Shown piece after piece: positions 9,684-58,655 of a stretch of 64,000 nucleotides of DNA (positions are counted from its first letter, which is position 1; the number at the start of each line of letters is the position of its first letter). Source of the stretch: an uncultured Nocardioides sp. (GTDB lineage: Bacteria > Actinomycetota > Actinomycetes > Propionibacteriales > Nocardioidaceae). The stretch covers positions 1-64,000 of the forward strand of contig CADCUM010000064.1 in NCBI GenBank assembly GCA_902805885.1, in the 5' to 3' direction. The translations under genes and the position numbers were made by a program. Below the pieces are notes generated by a model. The model ran no database searches. It had not been told where the DNA came from and worked only from the letters and a program-made list of their open reading frames with translations.

Positions 9684-9722
9684 CGTTCACACAAATGATG
9701 CATGTTCACGAGGAGCGGGACG

Positions 9723-25337: not shown

Positions 25338-25510
25338 CGCGCCAGCCTAGGGAAGCCGGACCTGCGCCGTACCGGCCGAAAGTCTGATCCGCCCTCGGCC
25401 ACTCGGACGGCACGGCTCGGGCCTCGCGTCCGATGACCTCGAGGCACCGCTGGCGCGACCGTGGACGCACCGGCCGGCCGACGGCGCCGCCCCACTCGAG
25501 GAGAACACCC

Positions 25511-39693: not shown

Positions 39694-41124
39694 TCAGTAG
39701 GCCCCGTCCTTGCCGAGGACGACTCGCACGGTCCTGAAGAGGATCACCAGGTCGTTCGTCAGCGACCAGTTGTCCCGGTAGTAGAGGTCGAGACGCATGG
39801 CGTCCTCCCAGGTGAGCCGGGACCGGCCCGACACCTGCCACAGGCCGGTGATCCCCGGCAGCACGTGGAGTCGCCGCCTGGCCGTGTCGTTGTAGGTGTC
39901 CACCTCCCACTGCTGCTGCGGTCGCGGTCCCACGAGGCTCATGGAGCCTCCGAGGACGTTGAGGAGCTGTGGCAGCTCGTCGATCGAGTACCGACGGATG
40001 ACCCGGCCGACCGGTGTGACCCGCGGGTCGTGCTCCATCTTCCAGAGCGCGCCGTCGTGGCCCGCTGCGGCTCGGAGCTCGGCCTCCCGGAGCTCGGCGT
40101 CGACGTGCATGGAGCGGAACTTCAGGCAGTCGAACGGCTCTCCGTGCAGTCCCACGCGACGTTGGCGATAGAGCACCGGACCGCCGTCGTACAGCTTGAT
40201 GAGGACGGCGGTGATCACCATCACCGGCAGCACGGCGAGCACCGCCCACGACGCGACGACGACGTCGAAGACGCGCTTGGGCCAGGCGTTGGCCCGCGAC
40301 GCACGAGGTCCGGCGACGTACACCAGCGGGACGCCGCCCACCGGGCGGATGTCGAGTCGTTGCCGGCCGATCTCGGCCAGGGGCGGCACGACGATGAGGT
40401 CGATGCTGCGTGTCTCCAGGCCCCAGGAGAGATCTCTCAGGTCGAGGCCGGCGCCGTCGGTCACCATGACCGTGTCCGCGCCCCAGCGCGAGCAGTCGGA
40501 CGCGAGGTCCGACACCGAGCCGAGCGCCCGGGCCGGCAGGGCGTCCTGCGGAAGCGCGTCGACATCGTCCACCACGTAGCCCACGACCCGGTAGCCGGAC
40601 TGCAGCTCCAGCGCGAGGCGGCCGGACAAGAGGCGGGCGGAGCCAGCCGACCCCACCACGACCACCCGGTGCGTCAACGCGCCGCCCGCCACCCGGCGTC
40701 GGCGCAGCCACACCCGGATGACCGAGCGCTCCAGCAGCAGCAGAGCCGCTCCCACGACGAGGAAGCTGACGAGGAACCCGCGGGAGAGGCTCGTATCGGT
40801 GAAGTAGCTCATGGCCGCGACGGTGACGAAGCTGAAGAAGACGGCCTCGATCACGCCGACGGACTCCTCGAGCGGGCTCCCCAGGCGTCGCGGGGTGTAG
40901 CAGCGGGTCCACCAGAGCATCGCCAGGGTGAGGACGATCAGGGCCGGGGTCATCAGGAGCGCGAAGCGGAATCCTGACTCGGTCGCCGTGGGCGCACCGA
41001 GCAGCACGGAGCGAGCCGGCCAGGCCAGGGCCGCGCTCAGGCAGAGCACCAGGATGTCCGTGACGAACACCGTCCGGCCCAGCACGTGCAGCGGGCTCCC
41101 GGGTTGGGACCCGCTCGGCCCCAT
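39694..41124 (-). CDS. Initiating sugar-phosphate transferase of exopolysaccharide synthesis
   Basis: 476 residues from ATG 41124. Four to five N-terminal TM helices, a CoA-binding-like domain (HRVVVVGSAGSARLLSGRL, about 175-290) and a C-terminal bacterial sugar-transferase domain. The latter has KRVFDVVVASWAVLAVLP, GGPVLYRQRRVGLHGEPFDCLKFRSM, DELPQLLNVLGGSMSLVGPRP and VLPGITGLWQVSGRS. Transfers a hexose-1-phosphate to undecaprenyl phosphate, the first step of repeat-unit assembly (WbaP/ExoY type). A very long open frame continues upstream to 43497, but it is non-coding antisense sequence. Confidence 0.95.
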   Translation of the reverse strand: MGPSGSQPGSPLHVLGRTVFVTDILVLCLSAALAWPARSVLLGAPTATESGFRFALLMTPALIVLTLAMLWWTRCYTPRRLGSPLEESVGVIEAVFFSFVTVAAMSYFTDTSLSRGFLVSFLVVGAALLLLERSVIRVWLRRRRVAGGALTHRVVVVGSAGSARLLSGRLALELQSGYRVVGYVVDDVDALPQDALPARALGSVSDLASDCSRWGADTVMVTDGAGLDLRDLSWGLETRSIDLIVVPPLAEIGRQRLDIRPVGGVPLVYVAGPRASRANAWPKRVFDVVVASWAVLAVLPVMVITAVLIKLYDGGPVLYRQRRVGLHGEPFDCLKFRSMHVDAELREAELRAAAGHDGALWKMEHDPRVTPVGRVIRRYSIDELPQLLNVLGGSMSLVGPRPQQQWEVDTYNDTARRRLHVLPGITGLWQVSGRSRLTWEDAMRLDLYYRDNWSLTNDLVILFRTVRVVLGKDGAY

Positions 41125-41600
41125 GACGTGGGCCGAGCGACGACGTTGCCGCCCCCTTCCCGGTCTCGACCGCGCAGGCCCCGGGGCGATGACGTTCGTC
41201 CCAGCGGACCGACGCCGACCCTGGCGTCCGACGACTGCTCCTTGTGCGTCCCTCAATGCCCCACGCATTCGAGATTCACCCCCACCTTCGACCTGCACTG
41301 GACGGTTGCGACCTGGGTCCCGAGTTGTCCAGACGTCGTGGTGAAAGTACCTGCATCCCGTCGCCCGCCTGCCCGCCCGAGCACCCTCAGGGGTGCATCT
41401 GCGCGTCTTCTTGACGTGACCTCGACGAACCCTGCTGTTCACCGCCGCTTCATCAACGTCGGCAGGCAACTCCGCTGCCCGACGAGCCTCGCCGCGGGAG
41501 CGTCCGCGCGGGGTGTGCGGTCGATGCCGGGCGCCGGTGGGGGCAGCGCCCGGGCCTGCGCCGAGCCCCTGCCGACGGCCTCGAGTGACGTGCTGGCGCT
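41125..41600. other. About 475-bp leader region upstream of the sugar transferase
   Basis: No supportable gene on either strand; the open frames have poor composition. It should contain the promoter and 5' UTR of the sugar transferase gene, but no clear -35/-10 pair was found. Confidence 0.5.
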
Positions 41601-44728: not shown

Positions 44729-45973
44729 ATGAGCGACCTGGGAAGCACGGGCGACCGGGGCGGAAGCCCGCGCGAAGGCGACGCACTGGCGGTCTTGGGC
44801 TGGGGGTTGCGGCACTACTTCTGGATCATCGTGCTGTGCGTGTGCACGCTCGGCATCCTGTCGCCGATCCTGGTCGAGCGGACGCCTGCCACCTTCGAGG
44901 CGGAGGCGCAGGTCGGACCCGACGCGGCCCTGAACCTGCAGAACCTCGACCCGCTTCCCCGTCTGGGTGAGTCGCTCTTCCGCAACGGCAGGGTCGCCGA
45001 GTCGGTGCGGCAGTCCTACGATCCCCCGCTGTCGCCCACGGAGGAGGTGATCCCGCAACGCGTCCGCCTCGTCACGGCACAGGACAACGTGGTGCTGACG
45101 GTCGTGGGCACCGCGCCCGACGCGGAAGAGGCTGCCGGCCTGGCCAACGCGGCGGCCGAGACCCTGGCCGACGAGCTCACCCGCTACGAGAGCGCCGTCG
45201 GAGCGTTCGCCGTCCAGCGATCCGCCACGCCGCCGGGTGCACCCGTGCCGAGGATGGGTCGGACCTCGGCCGCGGGTCTCGGCGGTCTCGCCGGCCTCGT
45301 GGCCGGTCTCGGGATCGTCGGACTGCTCCTCGTGCGACGCAGGCCCGTGCTGAGCGCCGAAGGTGCGGAGGCGGCCACCGGGGCCCTGGTCCTCGGCCAG
45401 GTCTGGCTCGGCAGGACGTCCGCCGAGTCACGGGGGCTGCCCCAGCTGTGCCACACCATCGAGGCGTTCGGTTGCGAGGAGCTCCTGCTCGTCGGCAGTC
45501 GCCGGACCAGGACCCGCCGGCGCGAGCTGGTCACGCTGCTGACCGAGGTGTTGTCCGGCCGACGCGACGTCACGGCCGTCAACGGGCTCCCCCGCGACCG
45601 TTCAGGCCCGCGTCCGAAGGGACGCGTGTCCGGTGGGCGCGCTCCGATCTTCCTCGCCGAGGACGCCTCCCAGGCACAGGTCGTCGCCCGGTCCGACCGG
45701 TCGGTCGCTGTCCTGGTCGTGCCCCGCGGCATCAGTCGGGCGTCCCTGGCTCGCCAGGTCCAGCAACATCTCGACGGAGGAGCGGCCGGGATCCTCCTGG
45801 TGCGGGACGCGGCACGCCGCCGTCGCCTGCTGGACAGGGTGCGACCCGGCAACCGTGCGTCGAGCAAGGATCCCGCACCCGGTGGGCCGGTGGGCGGGCC
45901 GGCCACCACCGGCAACGGGTCGGGACCACGGACGGGTTCAGCGGAGCCGGAGCGAACGGGCGGTAGTCGCTAG
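44729..45973 (+). CDS. Wzz-like polysaccharide chain-length protein
   Basis: 414 residues. TM1 (about 31-48) and TM2 (about 182-204) flank an extracytoplasmic domain (about 49-180) containing FEAEAQVGPDAALNLQ, the PCP/Wzz topology that sets polymer length. The cytoplasmic C-terminal half (about 205-414) occupies the place of a BY-kinase but has no Walker A, and its tail is disordered and Pro/Gly/Arg-rich. It is therefore not a tyrosine autokinase. Convergent with the polymerase gene: the two stop codons share the palindrome CTAG (45970-45973). Confidence 0.75.
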   Translation: MSDLGSTGDRGGSPREGDALAVLGWGLRHYFWIIVLCVCTLGILSPILVERTPATFEAEAQVGPDAALNLQNLDPLPRLGESLFRNGRVAESVRQSYDPPLSPTEEVIPQRVRLVTAQDNVVLTVVGTAPDAEEAAGLANAAAETLADELTRYESAVGAFAVQRSATPPGAPVPRMGRTSAAGLGGLAGLVAGLGIVGLLLVRRRPVLSAEGAEAATGALVLGQVWLGRTSAESRGLPQLCHTIEAFGCEELLLVGSRRTRTRRRELVTLLTEVLSGRRDVTAVNGLPRDRSGPRPKGRVSGGRAPIFLAEDASQAQVVARSDRSVAVLVVPRGISRASLARQVQQHLDGGAAGILLVRDAARRRRLLDRVRPGNRASSKDPAPGGPVGGPATTGNGSGPRTGSAEPERTGGSR

Positions 45974-47316
45974 CGTTCTGGCCGCGGGGTCCTCGAGGAG
46001 GGGGAGGCGGTCGCGTGCCCGGCACGCAAGGATGGACGCCCGTGCTGGGCGGCGACGCCGTTCCGGTGCAACGCGATCAGGATGAACACCATCCAGAAGC
46101 ACTTGAACTCCAGGCTGGACAGGAAGAAGACGGCGAAGACCAGCCCCACGAGGGCGCTGAACGGTGGGCCTCGGACTTCTCGGGGCAGGCGCCAGCCGTC
46201 GACGAGGCCCCGGACCAGCGCCCAGGTCAGCAGCAGGAGCCCCAGGACCCCCAGCTCCACGACGGCCAGCAGCCAGACGTTGTGCGCCTGGTAGGCGCCC
46301 GTGGCGCCGGCCAGCACCTTCGCGCTCGGGACGGACGCCTGGGTCTCGGCGTAGACCTGCGAGAACGTCCCCCACCCCGAGCCGTACCAGCAGTGCTGGG
46401 GGCAGGCGGCAAGGCCCACGCTCCAGATCTCCAGGCGGCCCGACGACGAGGTCGCCGACTCGTAGTTCCGGGAGGCCACGCCGGCGGGCTGGTAGACCCA
46501 CACCGACAGCGCCACGACCACACCCACGGCAAGGACTCCCAGCATCCTCGCCCGCGCCTGCACCGGCCCGCTCCACGCCAGGGCGAGAACGACCAGTCCC
46601 GCAGCGATCGTGCCGGTGCGCGACCCCGTCATCAGGATGCCCCAGAAGACGAGCGCCGCCACGCCGAGGTGCAGCATCCGCGAGCCGGCGGCACGACCCC
46701 CCGGGGACGCCGACGCCCGGCTCAGCGCCAGCACGAAGGGCAACAGCAACGACACCGCCTCGATACCTGGGCCCAGCATGTCGTTGCCGAACCGGCCGCC
46801 CTCCACGATGCCGCTCCCCGGCTCGTCACCGGGGAAGCCGCCGAGGTAGAACAGCTGGTACAGCCCGTAGCAGACCACCAGCGCCCCACCCGTGAGCAGA
46901 CCGTTCTCCGTACGACGGACGGCAACGGCGTCGACCGGGCTGAGGGTCACGAGGACGTACACCAGGACGAGGCTCCCGAGCACGAACAGCCCGGTGACCG
47001 TGACCTGCAGGTCGACCGTCCACAGCATCGTCGCGCACGCGAGGCCGAGGAAGAGCAGCCACACGGCCGCCGTGGAAGACACTGTCGGGGCGACGGCTCG
47101 GTTGCGGGTGAACTGCAGCAGCAGCCCAGCGGACAGCAGCAGTCCGAGCATCGAGGACACCGACCCGAAGGGCGAGTTGCCCACCGACAACAGGCCGCCG
47201 AAGGGAATGACGGCGGCGAAGAGGGGCAGCGTGACCCGCAGGGGATCGCGCAGGCAGACCGCCACCAGGGCGAGGAGTCCCGGGGCCGCGACTGCAGCCC
47301 ACATCCACCATGTCAT
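45970..47316 (-). CDS. O-antigen ligase / Wzy-like polymerase membrane protein
   Basis: 448 residues, about 11-12 TM helices. The Wzy_C/WaaL signature region is GILMTGSRTGTIAAGLVVLAL followed by the large periplasmic loop with YGSGWGTFSQVYAETQ and AHNVWLLAVVELGVLGLL, where the His and the downstream Glu are conserved family features. It would polymerise undecaprenyl-linked repeat units outside the membrane. Its ATG overlaps the next gene's stop as ATGA, coupling it to the unknown secreted protein. C-terminal Ser/Arg-rich tail. Confidence 0.88.
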   Translation of the reverse strand: MTWWMWAAVAAPGLLALVAVCLRDPLRVTLPLFAAVIPFGGLLSVGNSPFGSVSSMLGLLLSAGLLLQFTRNRAVAPTVSSTAAVWLLFLGLACATMLWTVDLQVTVTGLFVLGSLVLVYVLVTLSPVDAVAVRRTENGLLTGGALVVCYGLYQLFYLGGFPGDEPGSGIVEGGRFGNDMLGPGIEAVSLLLPFVLALSRASASPGGRAAGSRMLHLGVAALVFWGILMTGSRTGTIAAGLVVLALAWSGPVQARARMLGVLAVGVVVALSVWVYQPAGVASRNYESATSSSGRLEIWSVGLAACPQHCWYGSGWGTFSQVYAETQASVPSAKVLAGATGAYQAHNVWLLAVVELGVLGLLLLTWALVRGLVDGWRLPREVRGPPFSALVGLVFAVFFLSSLEFKCFWMVFILIALHRNGVAAQHGRPSLRAGHATASPSSRTPRPER

Positions 47317-48347
47317 GACGGGTCGGTCTCGTCGACGGACGTCTCGTCGACGGCCATGACGTCCCAGTGGGTGGGCGAGAACGGCAGGTCGCACAACGCG
47401 TCAGCCGACACGTCCCACAGCTGTCCGCGGCCCTCCGTCGCCGTGTCCTCCAGCTTGAGGGCCGTGGTGCCGCCGGAGTCCCCGATGTAGGCGCCGTAAC
47501 GCTGGAGCGCCTCCGCGATGACCCGAGCCTCGGGATGGAGGTCCACCGCGTCGAGGTCGACGGACGGCTTGATCCTGAGGCGGACCCCTTGCGGCGGCAC
47601 AGCCGGGTCGTCGCCGGCGTAGTCACCGTCGGAGCCGACCATCGGGAAGACGTGGTCCCGCGACATCTCGGGTCCGACCGCGATCTTGAGGACGTGCCTG
47701 ATCTCGCCGTCCTCGACGTCCTCCCAGGCGGCGGCCATCGTCGCCCCGTTGTTGCCCCGGTGCGTCCCGCGGTTGCGGGGGTCGTCGGACCGCCCCGTCT
47801 CCACTCGCAACCCGTTGGACTCCAGGTAGGTGACCGTCGCCCCGTCGGCCGACCAGGAGTCGTCGCCGGCGTCGTAGGCCGCGTCCGTCAGCGCGACGAC
47901 GAAGCCCTGCTCGCGGTCGTAGACCGTCATGCTCCCGTCGCTGTTGGCCGCCGGGCGGGCTCCGCGAGGTATGCGGAGGCGGGCGAGCTCCGGGAGATCG
48001 ATGCTCTCGGGAACCTGCAGCTCGTACGTCGGGTCCGGGGGGCTCGCCCAGTAGATCGGGTGGCCCCAGGGGCTGTCCCCGGCACCCGCCAGTGTCAGGC
48101 AGCCCGGCCCGCTGCCTGGCGCGGTGCGCAGGTGGTCCAGGATCTCGGGTCCGAACGGGTGCAACGGGGCGTCGTCGGCCACAGGGGTGTTCCACCACGA
48201 GTCCGGGCTGAAGGCGCGGAAGCCCTCGGGTGGGGCGTCACGAGCAACGCGCGGCGGGCTGTCGTCGGTCGACTCCATGGCGCTGCCGACCAGCGCCAGG
48301 GCGAGGCAGGCCAGCGCCGTCGCCACGAGCAGGTGCCGAAGTCGCAT
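47313..48347 (-). CDS. Secreted protein of unknown family (homologue of the one at 50178)
   Basis: 344 residues. Signal peptide about 1-24 (MRLRHLLVATALACLALALVG). The mature part contains FSPDSWWNTPV, GDSPWGHPIYW, RGTHRGNNGATMAAAW, a histidine-containing core (IRHVLKIAVGPEMSRDHVFP) and the C-terminal motif ARVIAEALQRYGAYIGDSGG. These align in order with the Tat-exported protein at 50178. No catalytic family recognised; conserved His, Asp and Trp residues suggest an enzyme or glycan-binding protein. It is coupled to the polymerase gene downstream, so it probably acts on the exported polysaccharide. Start: ATG 48347, or GTG 48350 one codon earlier. Confidence 0.75.
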   Translation of the reverse strand: MRLRHLLVATALACLALALVGSAMESTDDSPPRVARDAPPEGFRAFSPDSWWNTPVADDAPLHPFGPEILDHLRTAPGSGPGCLTLAGAGDSPWGHPIYWASPPDPTYELQVPESIDLPELARLRIPRGARPAANSDGSMTVYDREQGFVVALTDAAYDAGDDSWSADGATVTYLESNGLRVETGRSDDPRNRGTHRGNNGATMAAAWEDVEDGEIRHVLKIAVGPEMSRDHVFPMVGSDGDYAGDDPAVPPQGVRLRIKPSVDLDAVDLHPEARVIAEALQRYGAYIGDSGGTTALKLEDTATEGRGQLWDVSADALCDLPFSPTHWDVMAVDETSVDETDPS

Positions 48348-48390
48348 CACGCCCCCCGTCGGAGTGCCGGCACGAGCCCGCCCGGGCCGG

Positions 48391-50019
48391 TCACCGTGCG
48401 TCTCGCTTCCCGAGAAGCGTACCCACGAGGGGGATGCGAGCGAGCTCGGGGAACGTGTCCACGAGCTGCAGCGCCTGCCGGCTTCCCAGCACGACGACGG
48501 CGGAGGTCACGACGACCGCAGCCGCTGCGAGCAGCAGCCCCGGATCCACCACGACCTGGAAGACCCACAACGCGACGGCGCACACGGTGATCGTCGCGTA
48601 GGCCCGTCGACACTTCTCGTCGATGAACCGGCTGTGGAGGTCACGCCGCATCCCCCACTGGTTCAGCACGTTCTGGCCGACGAGCGCGGCGCAGCTGGCC
48701 GCCGCCACCCCCACCGCTGCGAACGGTGGAGCCAGCAGCAGGCACAGGGCGATGTTGAGCAGCGCGGTGACGCAGTTGACCCCCACGACGTACCTCAGGC
48801 GTCCGCAGACCTGGAGCGCGTAGGCGTTGAAGCCCAGCATCACGTTGACGTAGTAGCCGACCGCCAGCCACGCGAGCACCGGCGCGGAGCCGGCGTAGCG
48901 CTCGCCGAAGAGCACATCGGTCGTCAGGGGAGCCAGCGGTCCCGTCAGGGCGAAGATCGGGAACGAGAACACGGCCACGAACGCGGCCGTGTGCCAGTAC
49001 GTGCGTCTCAGCCCGTCGATGTCGCCGCGGGCATGGAGCCTGGCGATGGCCGGCAGGAACAAGGTGGCGAACGACGCGGTGATCGCCGTGTTCAGCCGCG
49101 CTGCGCTGAACACCGCCCGGAAGTTCGCGACCTCCACCACGGAGTGGTACCACCCGAGGATCACGACCCCACCGACCGTCATCGACAGGAGGGCGAGCTC
49201 GCCGGTGATGAGGGGGAAGGAGAACTCGAACACGCTCCGGAACGGCACGATGATCTGACGGGGACGCAGCTCCTGGAGCAGTCCGCGTTCACGCAGGACC
49301 TTGACGAGCAGGCTGACGTAGAGCGCCACGCCGACGACGGCAGCGAGGACGTAGCCGATGGCGAGGAACTCGACACTCGCGCCCACCAGGATCAGGCACA
49401 GGACGACGACCAGCCGGAGTCCCGGACCGAGGAGGTGCTTCCTGAAGAAGATGGTCCGTGGCTTCGTGAACACCGCGAACAGTGACACGAACACCTGGTC
49501 GAGGGCCTCGAGCGGCGACAGCAGGATCAGGATGAGCACGAGGCGGACCGCCTCGTCGCTGTCGACGACCGACCCGATGAGCTGGTCGCTGAAGAGGAAG
49601 AGGGCCCCGATGCTCAGCACGCTGGTCACGAAGATGGTGCCGACCGCGAGGACCATGGCGCCGAACATCCGCGCGTAGTCGCGCTGCTCCTCGTAGGTCG
49701 CCATGAAGCGACTGAGGAGCCTGCCCTGTCCGAGGCTCAGCAGGATCCGCGCAGCAGCGGCGATGGCCAGTGCGTACGCGAACGCACCGAACTCGACCTT
49801 GGTGAGGGTGCGGACGATGAGGACCTGCGTGACGATGCCGAGGAGGAGAGCGATGACCCGTCCCAGGACCAGCAGCGCTGAACCGCGTACGTGGCCCCGA
49901 CTGTCGCTGACCTCCTGCTCACCCAGGACCTGATCGCCCTGACGGTCCCGGTCCGGCACGAGTTCGAGCTCCTTGTCCCCCGAGGCATCTGCCCAGCCTT
50001 CTCGGCCCAGCACGTCCAC
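48391..50019 (-). CDS. Polysaccharide flippase (Wzx/MATE-like)
   Basis: 542 residues from GTG 50019. About 14 TM helices starting RGSALLVLGRVIALLLGIVTQ, followed by TKVEFGAFAYALAIAAAARIL, the polysaccharide-synthesis-protein pattern. The N-terminal 42 residues are hydrophilic and acidic, which is unusual; a shorter start is possible. It flips undecaprenyl-linked repeat units across the membrane for the polymerase at 45970. It sits between the two homologous secreted-protein genes. Confidence 0.9.
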   Translation of the reverse strand: MDVLGREGWADASGDKELELVPDRDRQGDQVLGEQEVSDSRGHVRGSALLVLGRVIALLLGIVTQVLIVRTLTKVEFGAFAYALAIAAAARILLSLGQGRLLSRFMATYEEQRDYARMFGAMVLAVGTIFVTSVLSIGALFLFSDQLIGSVVDSDEAVRLVLILILLSPLEALDQVFVSLFAVFTKPRTIFFRKHLLGPGLRLVVVLCLILVGASVEFLAIGYVLAAVVGVALYVSLLVKVLRERGLLQELRPRQIIVPFRSVFEFSFPLITGELALLSMTVGGVVILGWYHSVVEVANFRAVFSAARLNTAITASFATLFLPAIARLHARGDIDGLRRTYWHTAAFVAVFSFPIFALTGPLAPLTTDVLFGERYAGSAPVLAWLAVGYYVNVMLGFNAYALQVCGRLRYVVGVNCVTALLNIALCLLLAPPFAAVGVAAASCAALVGQNVLNQWGMRRDLHSRFIDEKCRRAYATITVCAVALWVFQVVVDPGLLLAAAAVVVTSAVVVLGSRQALQLVDTFPELARIPLVGTLLGKRDAR

Positions 50020-50177
50020 GCCGAGTCGTGGAGATCATTGTCGCTGTCGGTCGCCGGCTGAGCGGAACATAGCAAGGTGCCCGTCCGGACTGTCCATCCC
50101 TGAGGGTGGCACGCCGTGGGTGCGAGGCCTCCGGGAGGAGCTCCCCGCCGTCGGGCGGCGACGAGGTACGGGAAGCG

Positions 50178-51233
50178 TCAGCGGTGCTGCAGCACGACGA
50201 AGTCGTCCCACCTCAGGTCTCGCAGGGAGTCCTGGTGCAGCAGACGGCCCCACACCGGGTGGTCCTCGGTCTCCTGCTCGGCCTTCAGGGCGGACGCCGT
50301 ACCGGCGTTGTCCCCGATGTAGCAACCTCGGACCTGGAGGGTCCTGGCGATGACGCGAGCGGCAGGCGAGAGCCGCCTGGTCGCCAGGTCGACGTCAGCC
50401 CGCACGGCCAGGCGCTGGCCCTCCGCTCCGAATCCGAGCTTGCCGGACTCGGCTCCGACCATCGGGTGCCGGGCACCGGCGGCGGAGCTCGTCTCCACCA
50501 GGAACAGGTGGAGCACGTGCCCGAGGTCGGTGTCGTGCTCGATGCCGTGGTCGACCAGGTCCCTGCGGATGACCATCGCGTCGGAGATCCGGCCACGGCT
50601 GGTGAAGTTCCGGGGCTCGTTGGACTTCTGGTTGCGGTGGTCCAGGCCGTTGGAGGCATGGCGGGTGACACCGGCGCTCCTGACGTCGAGCAGGCGGCGG
50701 CCGACGACGTCCACACCGGTGAGGAACACGGTGAACCCGGAGGCCACGTCCATCACGCACAACGGGGAGTCGGACGTGCCCGTGATGACGTCGGAGAGCC
50801 AGCGGGGCGCCCGGAAGCCCCGCGTCCGCAGCACCCGGTTGAGCGGGTTGGAGTTGTCCTCGATGTTGCGGACCCGCCACACCGGGTGCGCCGTGGTCCC
50901 GCGAGCCCACGGAGTTCCCCAGCGGTTGTCCCCCGTCCCGTTGATCTTGGGGTAGGGGACGCCTCGCTGCTCCGGGAAGCTCGCCATGAACTCGTGGAAC
51001 CGTCCCGTCGCCTCGACGTCGACCTTCGATCCGGTCACGCGGCTGCGGAAGTAGGACCTCGGCCCATAGGGAACGTACGGCGGTCGCTGCCGTGGTGCAG
51101 ACGCGCTGGAGGCGGCCGAGGCGGCACCGGCACCCGTCAGGGGTGCGACAGCGGCGGATCCCATCAGCAGCGTCCGCCTCGTCAGGGAGACCGGCGTCGG
51201 GGTGGGCTGGAAGTGTGGGTGGAAGACGGGCAT
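50178..51233 (-). CDS. Tat-exported protein of unknown family (homologue of the one at 47313)
   Basis: 351 residues. The N-terminus PVSLTRRTLLMGSAAVAPLTG is a twin-arginine signal, cleaved near ASA. Shared landmarks with the protein at 47313 are GDNRWGTPW, a central SGFTVFLTGVD strand, GHVLHLFLVET, HPMVG and ARVIARTLQVRGCYIGD. Tat export implies folding, perhaps with a cofactor, before secretion, unlike the Sec-type homologue. No known catalytic family recognised. It is divergent from a sulfotransferase gene. The start ATG is chosen because the Tat motif follows within 20 residues. Confidence 0.75.
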   Translation of the reverse strand: MPVFHPHFQPTPTPVSLTRRTLLMGSAAVAPLTGAGAASAASSASAPRQRPPYVPYGPRSYFRSRVTGSKVDVEATGRFHEFMASFPEQRGVPYPKINGTGDNRWGTPWARGTTAHPVWRVRNIEDNSNPLNRVLRTRGFRAPRWLSDVITGTSDSPLCVMDVASGFTVFLTGVDVVGRRLLDVRSAGVTRHASNGLDHRNQKSNEPRNFTSRGRISDAMVIRRDLVDHGIEHDTDLGHVLHLFLVETSSAAGARHPMVGAESGKLGFGAEGQRLAVRADVDLATRRLSPAARVIARTLQVRGCYIGDNAGTASALKAEQETEDHPVWGRLLHQDSLRDLRWDDFVVLQHR

Positions 51234-51396
51234 GCCTGTCCTGCTCGTGACTCGGGGGCGACGGATCAAGAGGCGCGGGGGGCGACCCGCAAGGAACGAG
51301 GGTATATGTTCGCACCAACCGTGACGCCTCCACCGGAGGCGGAGCCCCGCCTCGACGCCACGTCGCCGTTTCACGCGGACCACCGAGGAGCGATTG

Positions 51397-52365
51397 ATGA
51401 GCACGGATCGGCCGAGGTTGAAGGTCCTCTCCATGGTCGGCGCCGGGCGCAGCGGGACGACCGTCCTGGCGAGCATCCTCGGCGAGGTCGAGGGGGTCCT
51501 CAGCGCCGGTGAGCTCCGCTGGCTGTGGGAGCGCGGCGTGCTCGCCGGACGGCCGTGTGGCTGTGGGGCGCCCCCTGCCGAGTGCCCCCTGTGGGGGCCC
51601 GTCATCGAGCGAGCGGTCCAGGACCTCGGGGGCCGGGACGTCCGGGAGACCGCCCAGCGCATCGTCGCCGCCCAGCACGAGGTCGGTCGGAGGAAGAACC
51701 TGCCCAGGGTCCTCGCCAGCGCCGGTGGCCGACCCAGCGACTGGCCGGCCCTCCGCCTCGTCCAGCAGGCGACCGCAGCGGCCTGCGAGGCCCTGGTGCA
51801 CACGACCGGGATGCTGACGCTGGTCGACACCTCGAAGCGGCCGATCGACGCAGCGATCGTCGCCAGCGTGCCGGGCATCGACCACTACGTCCTCCACATC
51901 GTCCGGGACCCGCGCGCCGTGGCTCACTCCTGGAGCCGCGTGAAGACCTTCACCGCGGCGGGCTCGACGCGGACGATGGGCCGACTGGGAGCCAGGTCCA
52001 CGGCTCGGCGGTGGGTGACCAACGCACTGGCCGCCGAGCTGCTGCTGCGCCGTACCCCACCTGAGAGGTGGCTCCGGCTGCGCTACGAGGACTTCGCCGC
52101 CGAGCCACGCCCGCGCGTGGACGCCATCTTGTCGTTCCTGGGGCACGGCGGCCCGGCGCCGTTCCTCGATGACCAGACCGTCCTGCTCGGCCCCAACCAC
52201 ATCGTGTCCGGGAACCCCAACCGGTTCACGACCGGCGAGGTGACCATCCGGCCCGACGACGAGTGGCGGCGTCAGATGCCTGCGCCGAAGCAGCGCGGCG
52301 TCGCCCTGGCCGCGTTCCCGCTGATGGTGAGGTACGGCTACCTCGGGCGCCGGCCGCGCCGCTAA
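51397..52365 (+). CDS. Sulfotransferase family protein
   Basis: 322 residues. The PAPS-binding P-loop GAGRSGTTVLASIL is at 15-28, followed by a cysteine cluster (CGCGAPPAECPLW, about 53-65) seen in a bacterial sulfotransferase subgroup, and the 3'-phosphate-binding segment LHIVRDPRAVAHSWSR. KRPIDAA and LRLRYEDFAAEPR are further family motifs. It would transfer sulfate from PAPS to a hydroxyl of the glycan or a lipid. GAGGAG precedes the ATG at 51397. It is the only plus-strand gene in this half of the locus until 57481. Confidence 0.85.
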   Translation: MSTDRPRLKVLSMVGAGRSGTTVLASILGEVEGVLSAGELRWLWERGVLAGRPCGCGAPPAECPLWGPVIERAVQDLGGRDVRETAQRIVAAQHEVGRRKNLPRVLASAGGRPSDWPALRLVQQATAAACEALVHTTGMLTLVDTSKRPIDAAIVASVPGIDHYVLHIVRDPRAVAHSWSRVKTFTAAGSTRTMGRLGARSTARRWVTNALAAELLLRRTPPERWLRLRYEDFAAEPRPRVDAILSFLGHGGPAPFLDDQTVLLGPNHIVSGNPNRFTTGEVTIRPDDEWRRQMPAPKQRGVALAAFPLMVRYGYLGRRPRR

Positions 52366-52403: not shown

Positions 52404-53540
52404 TCAGCGACCCGCGCCGGCCAGGTCCAGCACCGCGTCGGCCTGCTCCCGGACGTACGCCGTGGCCCGGATGAGGGAGGATCGGCGCAGCGGGGACCGG
52501 CCGCGCTCTGCCGCATCGAGCAGCGCGGACCACTTGTCGAAGAGGACCAGCAGCTCGTAGCAGCGGAGCTGCTCGACCTGCACCGGCCCGTCCCCCGCGT
52601 AGCCGTGGATGACCTCGCGCTCCACCCGGTCCACCGTGGTCCGGCTGAACGCACGCCCGTGGGTGTGCACCTGCAGGCCGAGCAGACGCACGCTGACCAG
52701 CATCCGGCCGAGGTCCTCGTGCGCAGGCACCACCCACCAGGGCATGGGGTCGAACACGGTCAGCCGGTCGTCCCGCCCGACGAACACGTTGCGAGGGGCG
52801 AAGTCCCCGTGCGCGACCGCCATCGGCAAGCGGTCCGGCAGCACGCCGGCGGCCAGCTCCGAGCCCCGCGTCCCCAGGTCGGCGAAGCGTGTGCCCAGCC
52901 GCTGCGAGAGGTAGGAGCCGTAGGCGTCGAACCGTTCGAGGACGTCCTCCCGGGTGCCCTGTCGAGCCGGCCGCTCGCCGTGAGGGGTCGCCTGCTGGAA
53001 CACGCGGAGCCAGGCGCCCGCCCGCCGCCACGGTTCCCACGAATCCTGTGCCCGGAACGGGTGCCTCGACGAGACGCGGTTCTGCGCCAGCAGCCGGCGC
53101 CGGAGCGTCGCGGCCTGGACGTACTCCATCAGGATCACGTTCTCCTGCTGGAGGTGGTCGAGGGGCCGGACCGACCCGAACCTCGGGTCGGTGTCCGAGA
53201 ACATCTCGTGCAGGGACCGCAGGCCGTCGTACTCCATCGCGCTGAGCTCGGACACGCTCGGGACGCCCGCGGCGAGCACCGGCCTGCGTGGCACCTGTCC
53301 GGGAGACGACGCCGACGGCTCGCGCCGGACCTTGGCGATGACCCGAGGGGTCCCCGGATCCTCACCGAGGTACACCGCGAGCAGCAGGGCGCGCGGCCGG
53401 CTGTCGACCTGACGGACCCGGACGGCCGACGCCGGACCGGTCCCTGTGCCGAACCACTCCTCCGCACACTCGGTCACCCGCCGCTTGACCACGTCGGCGG
53501 CGTGCCTGTCCTCCTCGGCGCGTTCGGCGCTCAACCGCAT
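52404..53540 (-). CDS. Phosphotransferase (kinase-fold) family protein
   Basis: 378 residues. Kinase-like fold of the APH/choline-kinase class: MAVAHGDFAPRNVFV gives the catalytic HGDxxxxN motif and VFDPMPWW the metal-binding Asp, with MEYVQAATLRRRLL in the hinge. The conserved His-Gly-Asp catalytic loop is intact. Such proteins phosphorylate sugars, choline or aminoglycosides; here a glycan sugar or substituent is plausible. The start is ATG 53540, four nt after the sulfotransferase stop; the frame is open further but not conserved-looking. Confidence 0.78.
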   Translation of the reverse strand: MRLSAERAEEDRHAADVVKRRVTECAEEWFGTGTGPASAVRVRQVDSRPRALLLAVYLGEDPGTPRVIAKVRREPSASSPGQVPRRPVLAAGVPSVSELSAMEYDGLRSLHEMFSDTDPRFGSVRPLDHLQQENVILMEYVQAATLRRRLLAQNRVSSRHPFRAQDSWEPWRRAGAWLRVFQQATPHGERPARQGTREDVLERFDAYGSYLSQRLGTRFADLGTRGSELAAGVLPDRLPMAVAHGDFAPRNVFVGRDDRLTVFDPMPWWVVPAHEDLGRMLVSVRLLGLQVHTHGRAFSRTTVDRVEREVIHGYAGDGPVQVEQLRCYELLVLFDKWSALLDAAERGRSPLRRSSLIRATAYVREQADAVLDLAGAGR

Positions 53541-53544
53541 CTCC

Positions 53545-54666
53545 TCACTCGCCCGCGGGCGGCGACGCGGTGCCAGGCACGCCCCGGAGGGTCCCCCACG
53601 CCTCGCGGACATCGCTCACGCGCCGGCCTCTCTGCACCTTGCGGAAGGCGTCCACCACGCGCACCGCGCGGCGGGCTCGAGCCCGGACCAGGGCCTGCTC
53701 GACCATGGCGAGACGTGCGGCGAGCTGTTCCGGACTGGCGTCGACGACGCTCGCAGGCCGGCCGGGGGGGTCGGACGGGCGGTCGCGCCACTCGCTCCAG
53801 CGACGAGCCAGGTCGTCGCCGTCGACGATCCGCCGCCGAGCTGATCCCGGCACCAGCGGCTCGTGCAGCTCCGGACCGAGCGGTCGGTAGCCGAACACCT
53901 CGGCGAGCCCGCCCGTGCGGCGGAGCGCGACGTGGTCCGTCGGGGTGACGGCGTCGGTCCACCGGTCAGCCCGCGTGGGGTCGATGGCGTCCCGGGTGCT
54001 CGTGGCGCCCTCCACGATGCGGGGCGCGCCCTGCGCGCGCTGCACCTGGTGGTGCTCGAGCAGGTGCGGGTGCCACGGTTCGCCGATCGCAACCATCAGC
54101 TCGCGCAGCACCGCCTCGCCGTCCCCCACCAGGTCCTCGTAGCGGACCAGGAAGAAACGTCGGGACAGGGCGCTCCCCGACTGCGCCATCTCGTAGTTCG
54201 TCGAGACCCAGTAGTCCACCGCGTCGGCGAAGGTGTAGTGGAACTTCTTGCGGAGGGAGACGGCGACAGCGCCGGGGTGGCGGACGATCCCGACGAAGAC
54301 AGCGTCGGGGAACACCCGCGCCATCTCGTCGATGTGCGAGGTGTGGAACGGGGTCTTCTCCCCCCAGCGTCGTTTGCCCTGCTGCTGGGCGTGGCGACGG
54401 AAGATCCCGTCGTAGAAGACGCGCAGGCGCTCGTCGATCTCGTCCTCGGACCACCCCAACCGCTGGAACCACCCGGCGCCGTGCTGCCAGTCCGGCACCT
54501 CCTTGACCCCGGCGAGACCACTCATGAAGCCCGACTCGGGACCGACGGCGATGTGCGGATGACTGTCGAGGATCAGGCGCAGGAGGGTGGAGCCGGACCG
54601 CATCGAGCCGACGATGAAGACGGGTCCCGGCGGCGTGGGCTCCTCCGTGGTGCCGGTCCCCGTCAT
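53545..54666 (-). CDS. Sulfotransferase family protein
   Basis: 373 residues. PAPS-binding P-loop FIVGSMRSGSTLLRLIL (17-33), GEKTPFHTSHIDEMARVFPDAVFVGIVRHPGAV in pieces as the central strand and 3'-PB motif (GIVRHPGAVAVSLRKK), and LVRYEDLVGDGEAVLRELM. Typical of the Sulfotransfer_1/3 family; the C-terminal 100 residues are Arg-rich and variable. Its ATG overlaps the deacetylase gene stop as ATGA. Together with the other two sulfotransferase-like genes it implies multiple sulfate sites on the product. Confidence 0.9.
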   Translation of the reverse strand: MTGTGTTEEPTPPGPVFIVGSMRSGSTLLRLILDSHPHIAVGPESGFMSGLAGVKEVPDWQHGAGWFQRLGWSEDEIDERLRVFYDGIFRRHAQQQGKRRWGEKTPFHTSHIDEMARVFPDAVFVGIVRHPGAVAVSLRKKFHYTFADAVDYWVSTNYEMAQSGSALSRRFFLVRYEDLVGDGEAVLRELMVAIGEPWHPHLLEHHQVQRAQGAPRIVEGATSTRDAIDPTRADRWTDAVTPTDHVALRRTGGLAEVFGYRPLGPELHEPLVPGSARRRIVDGDDLARRWSEWRDRPSDPPGRPASVVDASPEQLAARLAMVEQALVRARARRAVRVVDAFRKVQRGRRVSDVREAWGTLRGVPGTASPPAGE

Positions 54667-55424
54667 CGTCGCGCACCTCGGACGGTCCAGACGGCGTGCT
54701 GGGCGGCCCGGTAGCCACGACTCGTGCGGACGCCGAGATACGGCCGCGCGGTCTTGACCCGCAGGTGTGCAACGCCGTTGCCCCGGTGGATCCCGACGCG
54801 CGGGATCGCGAACGGACCCGGCGCCTCCCGCGTCTCGGGGAGCGTGAAGGCGTGGGAGTACCCCGCTCGTTCGGCGGCGGCGCGGACGGACGCGTCGTGG
54901 CGCCCACGCGGGTAGGCGAGCAGGCGCACCGGGTGGCCCAGCAGGGACTCGAGGAGCTCTCGACTGCGGGTCAGGTCGTCGACGCACTCCTGGAAGCTGA
55001 GCTGGGTCAGGTCGAGGTGGGAGTAGCTGTGCGACTCGAAGTGCACGCCCGCCGCCTGCATGTCCCTGACCTGGTCCAAGGTGAGGGTGGCGAGCGGGTA
55101 CGGCGGCGGCGTGTCGACCCAGTCGACCGCACGGCCGGCGTCCGTCAGGGTCTCGGCGACGAGGAAGACCGTCGCCGGGATCCCCAGCCGCGACAGCACC
55201 GGCGTCAGGTGGGCGTGCAAACCCGCGAAGCCGTCGTCGAAGGTCAGCGCGGTGGTACCGCGTGGAAGGCGACCGTCACGACCGACGGTCCGCACCGCCG
55301 ACTGCAGCGGCACGACCGTGGTGCGACGGACCAGCCACTCGGCGTGCTCCGCGAAGGCCTGGGGTTCCATCGCCATCGGCGACTCCCAGTCCGGTTGCAC
55401 CGCGTGGTAGCACAGGATCGTCAT
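54663..55424 (-). CDS. Polysaccharide deacetylase (NodB homology)
   Basis: 253 residues. NodB-domain motifs: MTILCYHAV at the start, LTFDDGFAGLHAH (metal-binding and catalytic Asp pair), HFESHSYSHLDLT (HSxxH metal ligands) and LLAYPRGRHD. It hydrolyses N- or O-acetyl groups of polysaccharides. No signal peptide is visible, so it may act on cytoplasmic precursors or be exported otherwise. Its start overlaps the GT4 gene stop, and its stop overlaps the sulfotransferase, giving a tightly coupled GT4-deacetylase-sulfotransferase unit. Confidence 0.92.
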   Translation of the reverse strand: MTILCYHAVQPDWESPMAMEPQAFAEHAEWLVRRTTVVPLQSAVRTVGRDGRLPRGTTALTFDDGFAGLHAHLTPVLSRLGIPATVFLVAETLTDAGRAVDWVDTPPPYPLATLTLDQVRDMQAAGVHFESHSYSHLDLTQLSFQECVDDLTRSRELLESLLGHPVRLLAYPRGRHDASVRAAAERAGYSHAFTLPETREAPGPFAIPRVGIHRGNGVAHLRVKTARPYLGVRTSRGYRAAQHAVWTVRGARR

Positions 55425-56503
55425 CGTGCTCCTCTCCCCAGCGTCAGGTACAGGTCTGACACCGCCCTCGCCGTGGCCCGGGACGAGAAGTGCTCCCGTG
55501 CCCGTCGACGGCCCGACTCCCCGACGCGTCGGCGCAGGTCCGCATCAGTCAGCAGTGTGCGCAGGGCCCCCGCGATCGCCGTGGGTGACTGGGCAGCGAC
55601 CACGTACCCCGTCTCGCCGTCGACCACGAGCCGTCCCACGTCGCCGACGTCGGTGGCCACCACGGGCAAGGACGCCGCCATGGCCTCCAGCACCGACAAC
55701 GGCATCGCCTCCCACCACGAGGGCAGGCAGAACACGTCCGCAGCGGCGTAGGCAGCCGGCATCTCGTGCGGAGGTCGGGTGCCGAGCAGCGTCGCCCGTC
55801 CCCTGGCCGCGGCGACGACGGGTTCGGCCGCCGCCGGGCCCTCGTCCGGGGTGCCCCCCAGCAGCAACAGCTCGTGCTCGATGCCCTCGGCGCACAGGGT
55901 CTTGGAGGCCTCGATCAGGTCCAGGACCCCCTTGCGGGGTGTCAGCAGCCCGACGTAGAGGACCCTCGGCGCAGCGAGCGACGGCTGTGGGGGGAGGAAG
56001 CGGTCGGGGTCGACCCCGTTGTCGATCAGGAGCACCCGGTCCCGACCGACCGCGCTCACCAACGCCCTCTCGCCGGCGCTCCACACGGCCACGACCCGGT
56101 CGACCGGCCACATCGCCGCTCGCATCAGCGCTCTGTTGCGTCGGCCGACCAACCAGGTCTCGATGTTCCCGCCGTGGGCGTGCATGATCACGCCGCACCC
56201 CCGCGACCTGGCCGCCAGGGCCAGCAGCCCGGCACGCGCCACGGTGACCGCCGGTGCCAGCGCCGAGTTGATGTGCACGACGTCGTGGTCCTGCGACGAG
56301 CGCCACACCCGCACCGCGTCCTTCAACGTGCGAGCGACGTTGGCGAGGGTGGGCTCGCCGCCCTCGGGCGTCCCGTGATGGGCGACGTTCAGGAAGGTGA
56401 TCGCGTGCTCCTCGGCCAGCGGCCCGCTGCGCAGGTCCTCCAGGAAGCTCGGGATGCCGCCACGATCCGGGGCCCCCTTCCCCACGAGCAGAACCCGCAC
56501 CAT
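55421..56503 (-). CDS. GT4 family glycosyltransferase
   Basis: 360 residues. GT-B fold: N-terminal VRVLLVGKGAPDRGGIPSFL with the acceptor-side HINSALAP, and a C-terminal donor domain with VLYVGLLTPRKGVLDLIEA and the EX7E-type motif in SWWEAMPLSVLEAM, then PVVATDVGDVGRLV. It is a retaining glycosyltransferase adding one sugar of the repeat unit; the donor is unknown. The ATG at 56503 follows a GGTGGGGAAGC site. It is first of the coupled three-gene unit. Confidence 0.92.
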   Translation of the reverse strand: MVRVLLVGKGAPDRGGIPSFLEDLRSGPLAEEHAITFLNVAHHGTPEGGEPTLANVARTLKDAVRVWRSSQDHDVVHINSALAPAVTVARAGLLALAARSRGCGVIMHAHGGNIETWLVGRRNRALMRAAMWPVDRVVAVWSAGERALVSAVGRDRVLLIDNGVDPDRFLPPQPSLAAPRVLYVGLLTPRKGVLDLIEASKTLCAEGIEHELLLLGGTPDEGPAAAEPVVAAARGRATLLGTRPPHEMPAAYAAADVFCLPSWWEAMPLSVLEAMAASLPVVATDVGDVGRLVVDGETGYVVAAQSPTAIAGALRTLLTDADLRRRVGESGRRRAREHFSSRATARAVSDLYLTLGRGAR

Positions 56504-56602
56504 GCTTCCCCACCCTCGCCTCGAACGACCTCGTGACCCCACGGCCCGCGCCCCGGCTGCGCCGGGCTGGCAGGCAGCGTACGCGCGGCGCGCCGCGGTC
56601 GC

Positions 56603-57346
56603 CTAGCGATGCTGGGTGCCGCCGTGCTCGAGAGCCAGCGCGGCGTACTGGTCGTAGAGGCGTTCCGCCTGGCGGAGCAGCCGTTGGGTCCGGGGCCGGC
56701 CCATCATCGTCAGCACGGCGTCCTTGCGACTCTCGCGCTCCTGCGAAGGCCGCCCGACGTGCGTCTCGACGACCTCACCCCGGCACTCCTTCCGGTTCAT
56801 CTCCTCGACCAGCCTGAACGCCTCCGCCCGGTTCGCCTCCGTGGGCTCGTACGGCACGAAGGAGGTGTCGAAGCGCGCGTTGACCGCTCGCACCACCTCG
56901 CCGAAGTCACGGGTCACCTGGTCGAACAGGGCGACGACGAAGCCGCGCCGCGCGCGCCACGCGGCGCGGTAGAAGTCGAGGTACTCCAGCAAGGCGTCGT
57001 CCGGGGTCAGCGTCGGGCGGCGGACCAGGTAGGACGCCACGGCATCCGCCGGCTGCCTGATGAGCACGACCGTCGGGAGGTCGAGACGGACCGCTCGAAG
57101 CACGTGGGGCGCTCCGTGGAGGTGGCGGCCCACGTGCATCCCGGGCTCGTTGGTCACGGTGAACGCAGCGACGCTGAACGTGTTGCCGGACCGGAGGAAC
57201 CCTTCGATGACGATCGCGGAGTCGCGTCTCGCCAACGTCGTGCGCTTGTCCTTGCGCACCACCATCGCGGCATCCCACAGGTAGGGAGCACGAGCCAGCG
57301 GTCGACGCGCGTGGTGGCGGAGTCGGTCGACCGAACGAGACGTCAC
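56603..57346 (-). CDS. Sulfotransferase-like P-loop protein
   Basis: 247 residues from a GTG, shorter than usual. The P-loop-like EGFLRSGNTFSVAAF (48-62) and the 3'-phosphate-binding-like LPTVVLIRQPADAVASYLVRR are present, with DFYRAAWRARRGFVVALFDQVTRDF following as in sulfotransferases. The canonical KTG/SGTT variant is replaced by SGNTF. It probably transfers sulfate, but the fold could serve another nucleotide-dependent role. It is separated by 99 nt from the GT4 gene. Confidence 0.65.
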   Translation of the reverse strand: MTSRSVDRLRHHARRPLARAPYLWDAAMVVRKDKRTTLARRDSAIVIEGFLRSGNTFSVAAFTVTNEPGMHVGRHLHGAPHVLRAVRLDLPTVVLIRQPADAVASYLVRRPTLTPDDALLEYLDFYRAAWRARRGFVVALFDQVTRDFGEVVRAVNARFDTSFVPYEPTEANRAEAFRLVEEMNRKECRGEVVETHVGRPSQERESRKDAVLTMMGRPRTQRLLRQAERLYDQYAALALEHGGTQHR

Positions 57347-57480: not shown

Positions 57481-58497
57481 ATGCACGAGGACCTCGTCAC
57501 CGTCGTCATTCCCGCCTACAACGAAGCCGCCCACCTCGGGGCGTGCCTCGACTCGGTGCGTGCCCAGGAGCACGCCCACCTCCAGATCGTGGTGGTGGAC
57601 GCCGACTCCTCCGACGGGACCGCCGACATCGTCCGCGAGCGGATGGCGGAGGATCCGCGCGTCGAGCTCGTCCACCATCCCCGCCAGAACATCCCCTCCT
57701 CCCTCAACGTCGCGGTGGAGCACGCCCGCGGCAGGTGGCTCGTGAGGGTGGATGCCCACTCCACGATCGGGCCGACGTACGTCGGCACAGCGCTCGCCCG
57801 CCTGCGCCAGCCCGGGTGGGCCGGCGTCGGAGGACGCAAGGACGGCGTGGGCTCCACCCCCGCGGGCCGAGCCATCGCCGTGGCGATGGCCAGCCGCTTG
57901 GGCGTCGGCAACTCCGTCTACCACTTCGGCACGACACCGCAGGAGGTGGATCACCTCGCCTTCGGTGCCTACCGCCTCGACGTCGTGAGGGAGATCGGCG
58001 GGTGGGACGAGAGGCTGACCGCGAACGAGGACTTCGAGTTCGACCACCGGCTGCGCAAGGCGGGACACCACCTGCTCTTCGACCCGGCCCTCGTCATCGA
58101 CTGGCAGTGCCGTCAGTCGGTCCCTGACCTGTTCCGCCAGTACCGCCGGTACGGCCGGGGCAAGGTGGACGTGGCGGTGCTCCACCCCGACTCGCTGCGG
58201 CCACGACACCTCGTGCCGCCCCTCTTCGTCGCCTACTCGACGGTGGCGACCGTCCTCGGTGCCCGGCGTCCGCGCTGGTTCGGGGCGATGCTGGGGCCGT
58301 ACGTCGCGGCGGTCCTGGCCGAGTCCGTCAGGTCCGGATCCCGCCTGTCGTCGACCCGGGAGCGCCTGTGGCTGCCGGCGGCGTTCGCCGCGATGCACGT
58401 CGGCTGGGGGGTGGGGGTGTGGTCGGCCGCACGTGAGAAGTTCTGGCGCGGCGCTCGCGACCGCGTACGTCCCCGTACCCCCACGCGCCGACCCTAG
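57481..58497 (+). CDS. GT2 family glycosyltransferase (ExoA-like)
   Basis: 338 residues. GT-A domain: LVTVVIPAYNEAAHLGACLDSV, donor-binding VVDADSSDGTADIV, metal-binding LVRVDAHSTIGPTYV and the catalytic-region WDERLTANEDFEFDHRLRKAG (ED motif). A hydrophobic C-terminus (about 240-320) would anchor it to the membrane. It resembles succinoglycan ExoA, which adds an early sugar to the lipid-linked repeat unit. It is divergent from the short sulfotransferase-like gene and last in the glycan locus. Confidence 0.92.
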   Translation: MHEDLVTVVIPAYNEAAHLGACLDSVRAQEHAHLQIVVVDADSSDGTADIVRERMAEDPRVELVHHPRQNIPSSLNVAVEHARGRWLVRVDAHSTIGPTYVGTALARLRQPGWAGVGGRKDGVGSTPAGRAIAVAMASRLGVGNSVYHFGTTPQEVDHLAFGAYRLDVVREIGGWDERLTANEDFEFDHRLRKAGHHLLFDPALVIDWQCRQSVPDLFRQYRRYGRGKVDVAVLHPDSLRPRHLVPPLFVAYSTVATVLGARRPRWFGAMLGPYVAAVLAESVRSGSRLSSTRERLWLPAAFAAMHVGWGVGVWSAAREKFWRGARDRVRPRTPTRRP

Positions 58498-58615
58498 GTA
58501 ACGTCAAGATTCAACCCACACCTGTTGGGGTGGGCAGATCGGGGCGGGAAAAGACTTTCCATGGACCCGGGCTCGAAGGAAGCCCTGCGTAGGGGAGATC
58601 GGTGGGGCGGTCGGT

Positions 58616-58649
58616 CACACCTACGCACCGGTCTGCTGGTAGGGGTGTG
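58616..58649 (+). promoter_or_regulatory. Hairpin covering the ribosome binding site of the VWA gene
   Basis: CACACC (58616-58621) pairs with GGTGTG (58644-58649), with an inner ACC/GGT pair. The AGGGG that serves as Shine-Dalgarno (58641-58645) lies at its right arm, 10 nt before the ATG at 58656. It could restrain translation until melted or bound. Confidence 0.4.
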
Positions 58650-58655
58650 CGAACT

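Follow-up and report, generated by a model that had tools for sequence, protein, structure and literature searches.

What do two related, apparently exported proteins do on either side of the flippase gene in a bacterial polysaccharide locus? The question is raised by a stretch of 64,000 nt from an uncultured Nocardioides sp. (assembly GCA_902805885.1, contig CADCUM010000064.1), called the window here. Protein A (47313-48347 when started at ATG, 48350 when started at GTG) and protein B (50178-51233) are members of the same family, both encoded on the minus strand. We propose, with a probability of roughly 55%, that they are exported and most likely polysaccharide-cleaving members of one large uncharacterized carbohydrate-active family. 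The observations behind this proposal are the homology of the two proteins, gene linkage, sequence conservation, domain fusions, and relatives in phage tails.

Homology and putative export signals of proteins A and B

The two proteins are homologous (BLASTP 76 bits, E = 5e-20, 32% over 233 residues), and the similarity is not due to chance, because relatives of both recur in many genomes. The original prediction had described a homologous pair flanking a flippase, and this holds: a PF01943 gene (Wzx flippase; 48391-50019, minus strand, E = 5.7e-19; the true start codon is possibly further in) lies between A and B. It had left out the strand. A predicted ATGA coupling was also borne out: the TGA stop codon of A (47315-47313) overlaps the ATG start codon (47316-47314) of a Wzy-type polymerase or O-antigen ligase-like membrane protein (45970-47316, minus strand; PF04932, E = 1.3e-18). 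The shared motifs listed earlier all occur in the order given, as the A/B pairs GDSPWGHP/GDNRWGTP, FVVALT/FTVFLT, HVL (in both), FPMVG/HPMVG, and ARVIAEALQRYGAYIGD/ARVIARTLQVRGCYIGD; the spacing from HVL to the following Glu needs correction, being 6 residues in A and 5 in B.

Export signals were judged by eye alone, without a signal-peptide program. Read in this way, A has at its N-terminus a hydrophobic segment preceded by a short stretch of basic residues, and B carries the twin-arginine motif SLTRRTLLMG. The hydrophobic N-terminal segment of A-type relatives may be either a cleaved signal or an anchor. Twin-arginine (Tat)-like motifs were noticed by eye in two further B-type relatives, L006 and L048 (L numbers refer to loci or their family members, G numbers to genomes), and were not seen by eye in B-types L011, L052, and L065. 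The different export routes proposed for the two copies are a lineage trait only in part.

Relation to known families and distribution

Neither A nor B matched a Pfam family (E <= 10) or a PDB sequence, and NCBIfam returned nothing beyond one row at E = 0.11. The domain shared by 88 aligned relatives had no credible match in Pfam or NCBIfam, including the polysaccharide lyase and glycoside hydrolase families, and its profile search against PDB sequences gave only one row (E about 0.1, a molybdopterin oxidoreductase), which is not credible. In these Pfam, NCBIfam, and PDB sequence searches of A, B, and the 88 relatives the family is thus unrecognized, as first described. Searches of the open-access PubMed Central (PMC) literature, which do not cover other print, found no paper on the family: those aimed at the family or its setting listed a single paper, on the capsule of Cobetia marina, and among the 15 of 53 matches listed for new folds none concerns the family, judging by titles and the start of the abstracts.

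The family is present in 56 of 396 genomes of the phylum (profile search, E <= 1e-3) and in 66 of 147 genomes of the genus (profile search, E <= 1e-5). Five family matches fall in the window's own genome, and six plasmid records match A. With B alone as the query, relatives came up in 6 of 58 near genomes, and in four of the six the matches were marginal only; a single-protein query is too insensitive, so the wider profile was needed. In a scan with one genome per species, 56 family loci were found. Their record titles name Actinomycetota (many), Verrucomicrobiota, Planctomycetota, Acidobacteriota, Armatimonadota, and Calditrichota, together with a gammaproteobacterium, Myxococcota, Bdellovibrionales, and a Chitinophagaceae genome; since many of the 56 loci come from metagenome bins, single phyla in this list are possibly binning errors.

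Linkage to wzy and to polysaccharide clusters

The 396 phylum genomes searched for the family were also searched for the window's Wzy, independently of the family. Seven of them have it, and five of the seven (G000, G082, G257, G268, and G346) carry a family gene on the same contig, at spacings from directly adjacent to 14 kb. The per-genome co-occurrence gives a Fisher p of 8e-4, or 0.004 (4/6) when the window's own genome is left out. Within the genus, Wzy was found in 3 of 147 genomes (G000, G024, and G521, the window's own included), each time with a family gene less than 1 kb away. In six loci (the window, L047 of Nocardioides caldifontis YIM 730233, L048, L053, G268, and G346) the family gene immediately precedes wzy and is read from the same strand; besides the ATGA of the window there are candidate 4-base overlaps in L047 (ATGA) and G268 (TTGA). 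In L051, whose genome is G521, and in G024 the two genes adjoin on opposite strands.

The association extends to other glycan genes. When the window genes were compared with 14 related loci, homologues of Wzx, Wzy, the sulfotransferases, or the glycosyltransferase of family 4 were found in eight (L046, L047, L048, L050, L051, L053, L012, and L014). The other six (L006, L011, L052, L056, L059, and L065) have none of the glycan genes; some of the loci compared are short (L006, L011, L012, and L014 about 4 kb, L065 6 kb). Of 49 loci, 11 have a transferase that initiates exopolysaccharide (EPS) synthesis no more than about 10 kb away, whereas its frequency in each genome predicts 0.53 (Poisson P = 1e-11, an optimistic value because related organisms do not contribute fully independent loci). 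Without the loci of Nocardioidaceae and Geodermatophilus telluris the count is 9 of 42 against 0.45 expected. The link to glycan clusters holds for the A-type genes, some B-type genes, and part of the wider family.

A place beside a polymerase, a flippase, and sulfotransferases would also suit a transferase or ligase, with the completed chain, or a substituent, being joined to the cell wall or to the polymer. We consider this improbable: the domain also occurs outside such clusters and in phage tails, and its presence in phage tails would make ligation of an own polymer senseless there.

Copy number and clades

In a tree built from 46 of the 88 alignment rows plus three phage rows (midpoint root only), A and B belong to different clades, both supported, which rules out a recent local duplication from A to B. 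At least two family genes per locus or contig neighborhood were found in 7 of 12 Wzx/Wzy-type loci: the window, L047, L048 (three copies), contig C67 of G521 (the contig of L051, copies 12 kb apart), G024 (about 12 kb apart if the contig is circular), G082, and G268 (in tandem). A single family gene was found in L046, L050, L053, G257, and G346. The repeated occurrence of multi-copy loci suggests that the copies differ in role or substrate rather than being redundant.

Relatives in phage tails

The PHROG collection, in contrast to Pfam and NCBIfam, does contain the domain. Profile 17388 (minor tail protein) matches A with E = 1.4e-10 over core residues 7-265 and, at E <= 0.01, 71 other members as well (72/88). 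Compared with 50,697 phage records, A gave 69 matches, all in Gordonia phages; among the matches listed, the genome size of the phage records is about 50 to 152 kb. A search of a viral structure library with the model of A gave five matches (E <= 0.001, probability 1.00, best E = 2e-17), among them the minor tail protein of Gordonia phage Guillaume and a 'Parallel beta-helix repeat' protein of an uncultured phage. The family domain lies within the structural region in phage Trax and amid lysin and minor tail genes in phage Gibbles. Phage copies of the domain are flanked by an N-terminal part and an extra C-terminal domain. The Stormageddon protein was labelled 'glycosylhydrolase' by one depositor.

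A phage query against a collection of viral contigs found 14 loci, on contigs of 44-151 kb with 71-100% identity to Trax; by their length some of these contigs are the same Gordonia phages (for example the one of 75,943 bases). Queries A2 and L062 found no relative in this viral contig collection. Such identities across contigs of very unequal size look like the trace of a module swapped between unrelated phages. The observation concerns L111 (7827-9506), L112 (7830-9509), L113 (7587-9503), and L144-L157.

Conserved residues and domain fusions

Three residues stand out in the 88-row alignment, whose mean column identity is 20%: Asp138 (87/88 rows), His219 (84/88), and Asp291 (85/88), in the numbering of A that counts from GTG (P0002; one less from ATG). 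Pro236, Gly255, and Gly286 of A are invariant (88/88). The counterparts in B are Asp155, His239, and Asp308, and the Asp, His, and Asp motifs are retained in three phage proteins. Near-invariance of these residues at so low an overall identity resembles that of an active site.

Domain fusions were scanned with Pfam over the whole length of 40 mostly longer members out of 105 listed reading frames. The domain is joined to malectin in three, CBM60 in two, and CBM96, a YdjC deacetylase, and an alginate lyase in one each, and some of the members scanned have PKD or beta-propeller modules. For 20 of the 40 the carriers are known individually: CBM96 in L056, YdjC in L058, malectin in L061, CBM60 in L023 and L062, MBG plus alginate lyase in L092, PKD in L022, and a beta-propeller in L066. 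The L058 gene, from a Phycisphaerales genome (9071-10987), is a single frame in which the YdjC-type deacetylase (residues 50-293) is fused to the family domain. The N-terminal part of L011 had been read by eye as a DNRLRE module, an assignment unsupported by any profile.

These data bear on a second explanation, in which A and B would be non-catalytic glycan binders, that is, lectins or co-polymerase or retention factors beside Wzy, with the phage copies acting as tail adhesins. Minor tail proteins are often adhesins, the C-terminal stretch of the Trax copy shows a weak resemblance to Laminin_G_3 (E = 0.089, below the cut-off), and the direct coupling to wzy would suit a partner of the polymerase. 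On the other hand, some members carry CBM60, CBM96, or malectin as separate modules, which points to the shared domain as the catalytic one, and the near-invariance of Asp, His, and Asp has the look of an active site. We judge a binding role unlikely, though worth serious consideration.

Predicted structures and comparison with MltA

The mature domains were confidently modelled by AlphaFold (predicted local distance difference test score, pLDDT, 94.6 for A and 96.7 for B), and both models consist of mixed helices and strands. Foldseek found no match under E = 1 in the PDB for either model, a result that is not proof of a new fold. In a second structural look, E. coli MltA with chitohexaose (2pi8) was the top row for both models (A: Z = 3.0, root-mean-square deviation (rmsd) 6.5, 170 residues; B: Z = 3.6, rmsd 6.4, 180 residues); a Z under 4 is weak by the comparison tool's own note. 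Rows for ribosomal L25/TL5 and SAS-6 obtained with B (Z of 3.0 or less, partial chain coverage) were disregarded.

Could A and B then be remote relatives of MltA (GH102), with the fold of a lytic transglycosylase acting on peptidoglycan or an aminoglycan? Besides the overlay, which covers the whole length of both models, MltA and many family members have in common a D-x-G-G motif late in the protein. As to the double-psi beta-barrel fold that goes with MltA, the observation consists of the two Z values, 3.0 and 3.6. Membership was dropped after profile comparison with eight MltA sequences gave a probability of 0.1, the same as that of a reversed control. The Pfam profiles MltA (PF03562) and 3D (PF06725) matched neither A and B (E <= 10) nor the 88 members (E <= 0.1), and the 3D profile had no match in 40 genomes of the class. 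MltA is described with three conserved aspartates, D261, D297, and D308, the catalytic one standing 11 residues past the second (PMC4499186). This three-aspartate 3D pattern is not conserved in the family: at the position compared, 10 residues past Asp291 in A and 11 in B, the residue is Glu in 45 of 88 rows and Gln in 16 of 88, so that no conserved acid is found there. A kinship with MltA is therefore very improbable.

Other genes of the window

By its appearance the locus is probably a Wzx/Wzy exopolysaccharide cluster with a sulfated product. It holds a polyprenyl glycosylphosphotransferase that initiates polysaccharide synthesis (39694-41160, minus strand; TIGR03025, 415 bits, cut-off 295.55) and a putative chain-length or Wzz-like membrane protein (44729-45973, plus strand), named by eye, which matched neither Pfam nor NCBIfam and has homologues in related loci. 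On the other side of B are a sulfotransferase (51394-52365, plus strand; PF13469, Sulfotransfer_3, E = 5e-14), an APH-like kinase with homologues in four related loci (52404-53612, minus strand; PF01636, E = 3.2e-5), a second sulfotransferase (53545-54669, minus strand; PF13469, Sulfotransfer_3, E = 2e-33), a polysaccharide deacetylase (54663-55424, minus strand; PF01522, E = 1.8e-27), and glycosyltransferases of family 4 (55421-56542, minus strand; PF00534, E = 5.4e-32) and family 2 (57481-58497, plus strand; PF00535, E = 1.1e-25). Sulfotransferase homologues were found again in related actinobacterial loci, and together with the window's own they make a sulfated exopolysaccharide likely. The gene at 56603-57346 looks by eye like a third sulfotransferase and has no Pfam match.

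Just past the glycan locus is a DNRLRE-domain protein (60297-62033, plus strand; 46.4 bits, cut-off 34), preceded by a VWA-like protein (58602-60275, plus strand), read by eye and without an NCBIfam match. A class F sortase-like protein (63121-63798, minus strand) scores 63 bits, below the family cut-off of 166. Three large MmpL-like transporters, recognized by eye, are encoded at 9702-11930, 19514-21763, and 25433-27715.

Proposed function and known systems

An exported enzyme that cuts polysaccharide is the simplest account of a gene that travels with the polymerase, is fused to carbohydrate-binding modules and to other polysaccharide enzymes, and is carried in phage tails. The original suggestion that A and B act on the exported polysaccharide gains support from the wzy linkage, the carbohydrate-domain fusions, and the phage-tail relatives. 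In the mechanism that we propose, A would be exported by the Sec route or held by an N-terminal anchor and B by Tat, as read by eye, and both would act outside the membrane on a polymer started, Wzy-polymerized, Wzx-flipped, and probably sulfated by the products of neighboring genes. Their most likely job would be chain cleavage, with the reaction of a depolymerase, hydrolase, or lyase, at a predicted catalytic site centered on Asp138, His219, and Asp291 of A (Asp155, His239, and Asp308 of B). Cleavage could set chain length, release the product, or remodel the matrix.

Several findings weigh against this proposal. In two genomes with the window's Wzy, G132 and G401, no family match turned up, either genome-wide or in the stretch around wzy (the G401 contig is only 9 kb). 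Among 18 genus loci of other subfamilies, a sample of the family matches in the genus at 9 kb each, none had a gene homologous to the wzx, wzy, sulfotransferase, or transferase genes of the window (E <= 1e-10), just as none of 17 control stretches had homologues of the window's polysaccharide genes; the neighbors in five of the 18, read by eye, include valS, folC, der, and cmk. The family is thus not tied to EPS synthesis everywhere, and the idea of a polysaccharide-locus gene throughout was rejected for the family as a whole; cell-wall or foreign glycans may be the targets of some members. The phage matches are nearly confined to Gordonia phages: the Mycolicibacterium relative L062 has 66 matches in phage records, 65 of them to Gordonia phages and one to a Microcystis phage, and the Acidobacteria relative L083 has none. 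Apart from the weak MltA overlay, neither model matched the structure of a known carbohydrate enzyme. Of 20 longer members scanned individually, 11 have no second Pfam domain. The Asp, His, and Asp would be just as well suited to metal binding in a lectin, and no family member with known enzyme activity was found.

Two further observations may be recorded separately. In all or most of L172-L175 the subfamily domain lies beside two more genes of similar length. In L173, one of the 18 genus loci, these companions are a PBP-like protein and another secreted protein, and a Pfam GT2 glycosyltransferase is encoded about 2 kb upstream.

A polysaccharide-cleaving role for A and B would be of a known kind, as WceF of Pantoea stewartii is a proven EPS-cluster-encoded stewartan hydrolase with a phage tailspike fold (PMC7949094). 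A and B are likewise encoded in an EPS cluster and have relatives among phage tail proteins, and action on their own EPS is a proposal of this work. WceF, as described there, is a trimeric parallel beta-helix, whereas the models of A and B are mixed helix and strand and gave no solved fold under E = 1 in Foldseek; we noticed no tailspike in the Foldseek rows shown, and a missing match does not exclude that fold. The proposed role resembles that of WceF and the family differs; the family, perhaps also the fold, is without assignment. PHROG 17388 shares its domain with A, while the phage copies have extra flanking parts and no activity is assigned to them by PHROG.

AlgL, PslG, and BcsZ are periplasmic lyases or hydrolases of EPS operons, in which a polysaccharide cleaver is encoded inside the biosynthetic operon. 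The operon placement of A and B is similar; those enzymes belong to named families, whereas the family of A and B has no Pfam match. EPS clusters with a depolymerase of their own are already known; here the family has no match in Pfam, NCBIfam, or solved structures. A broader proposal, which we offer tentatively as possible rather than probable, is a new carbohydrate-active superfamily with its own fold and an Asp-His-Asp site, spread over about ten phyla by record titles, that would cut or size the bacterium's own, probably sulfated polymer when encoded beside wzy and help the tails of diverse Gordonia phages to penetrate the surface glycan of the host. If this is a true enzyme family, many secreted proteins now called hypothetical would gain an annotation and the host-glycan tool of Gordonia phages would be named. 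It would also give a handle on the sizing and release of Wzy-dependent polymers in Gram-positive bacteria.

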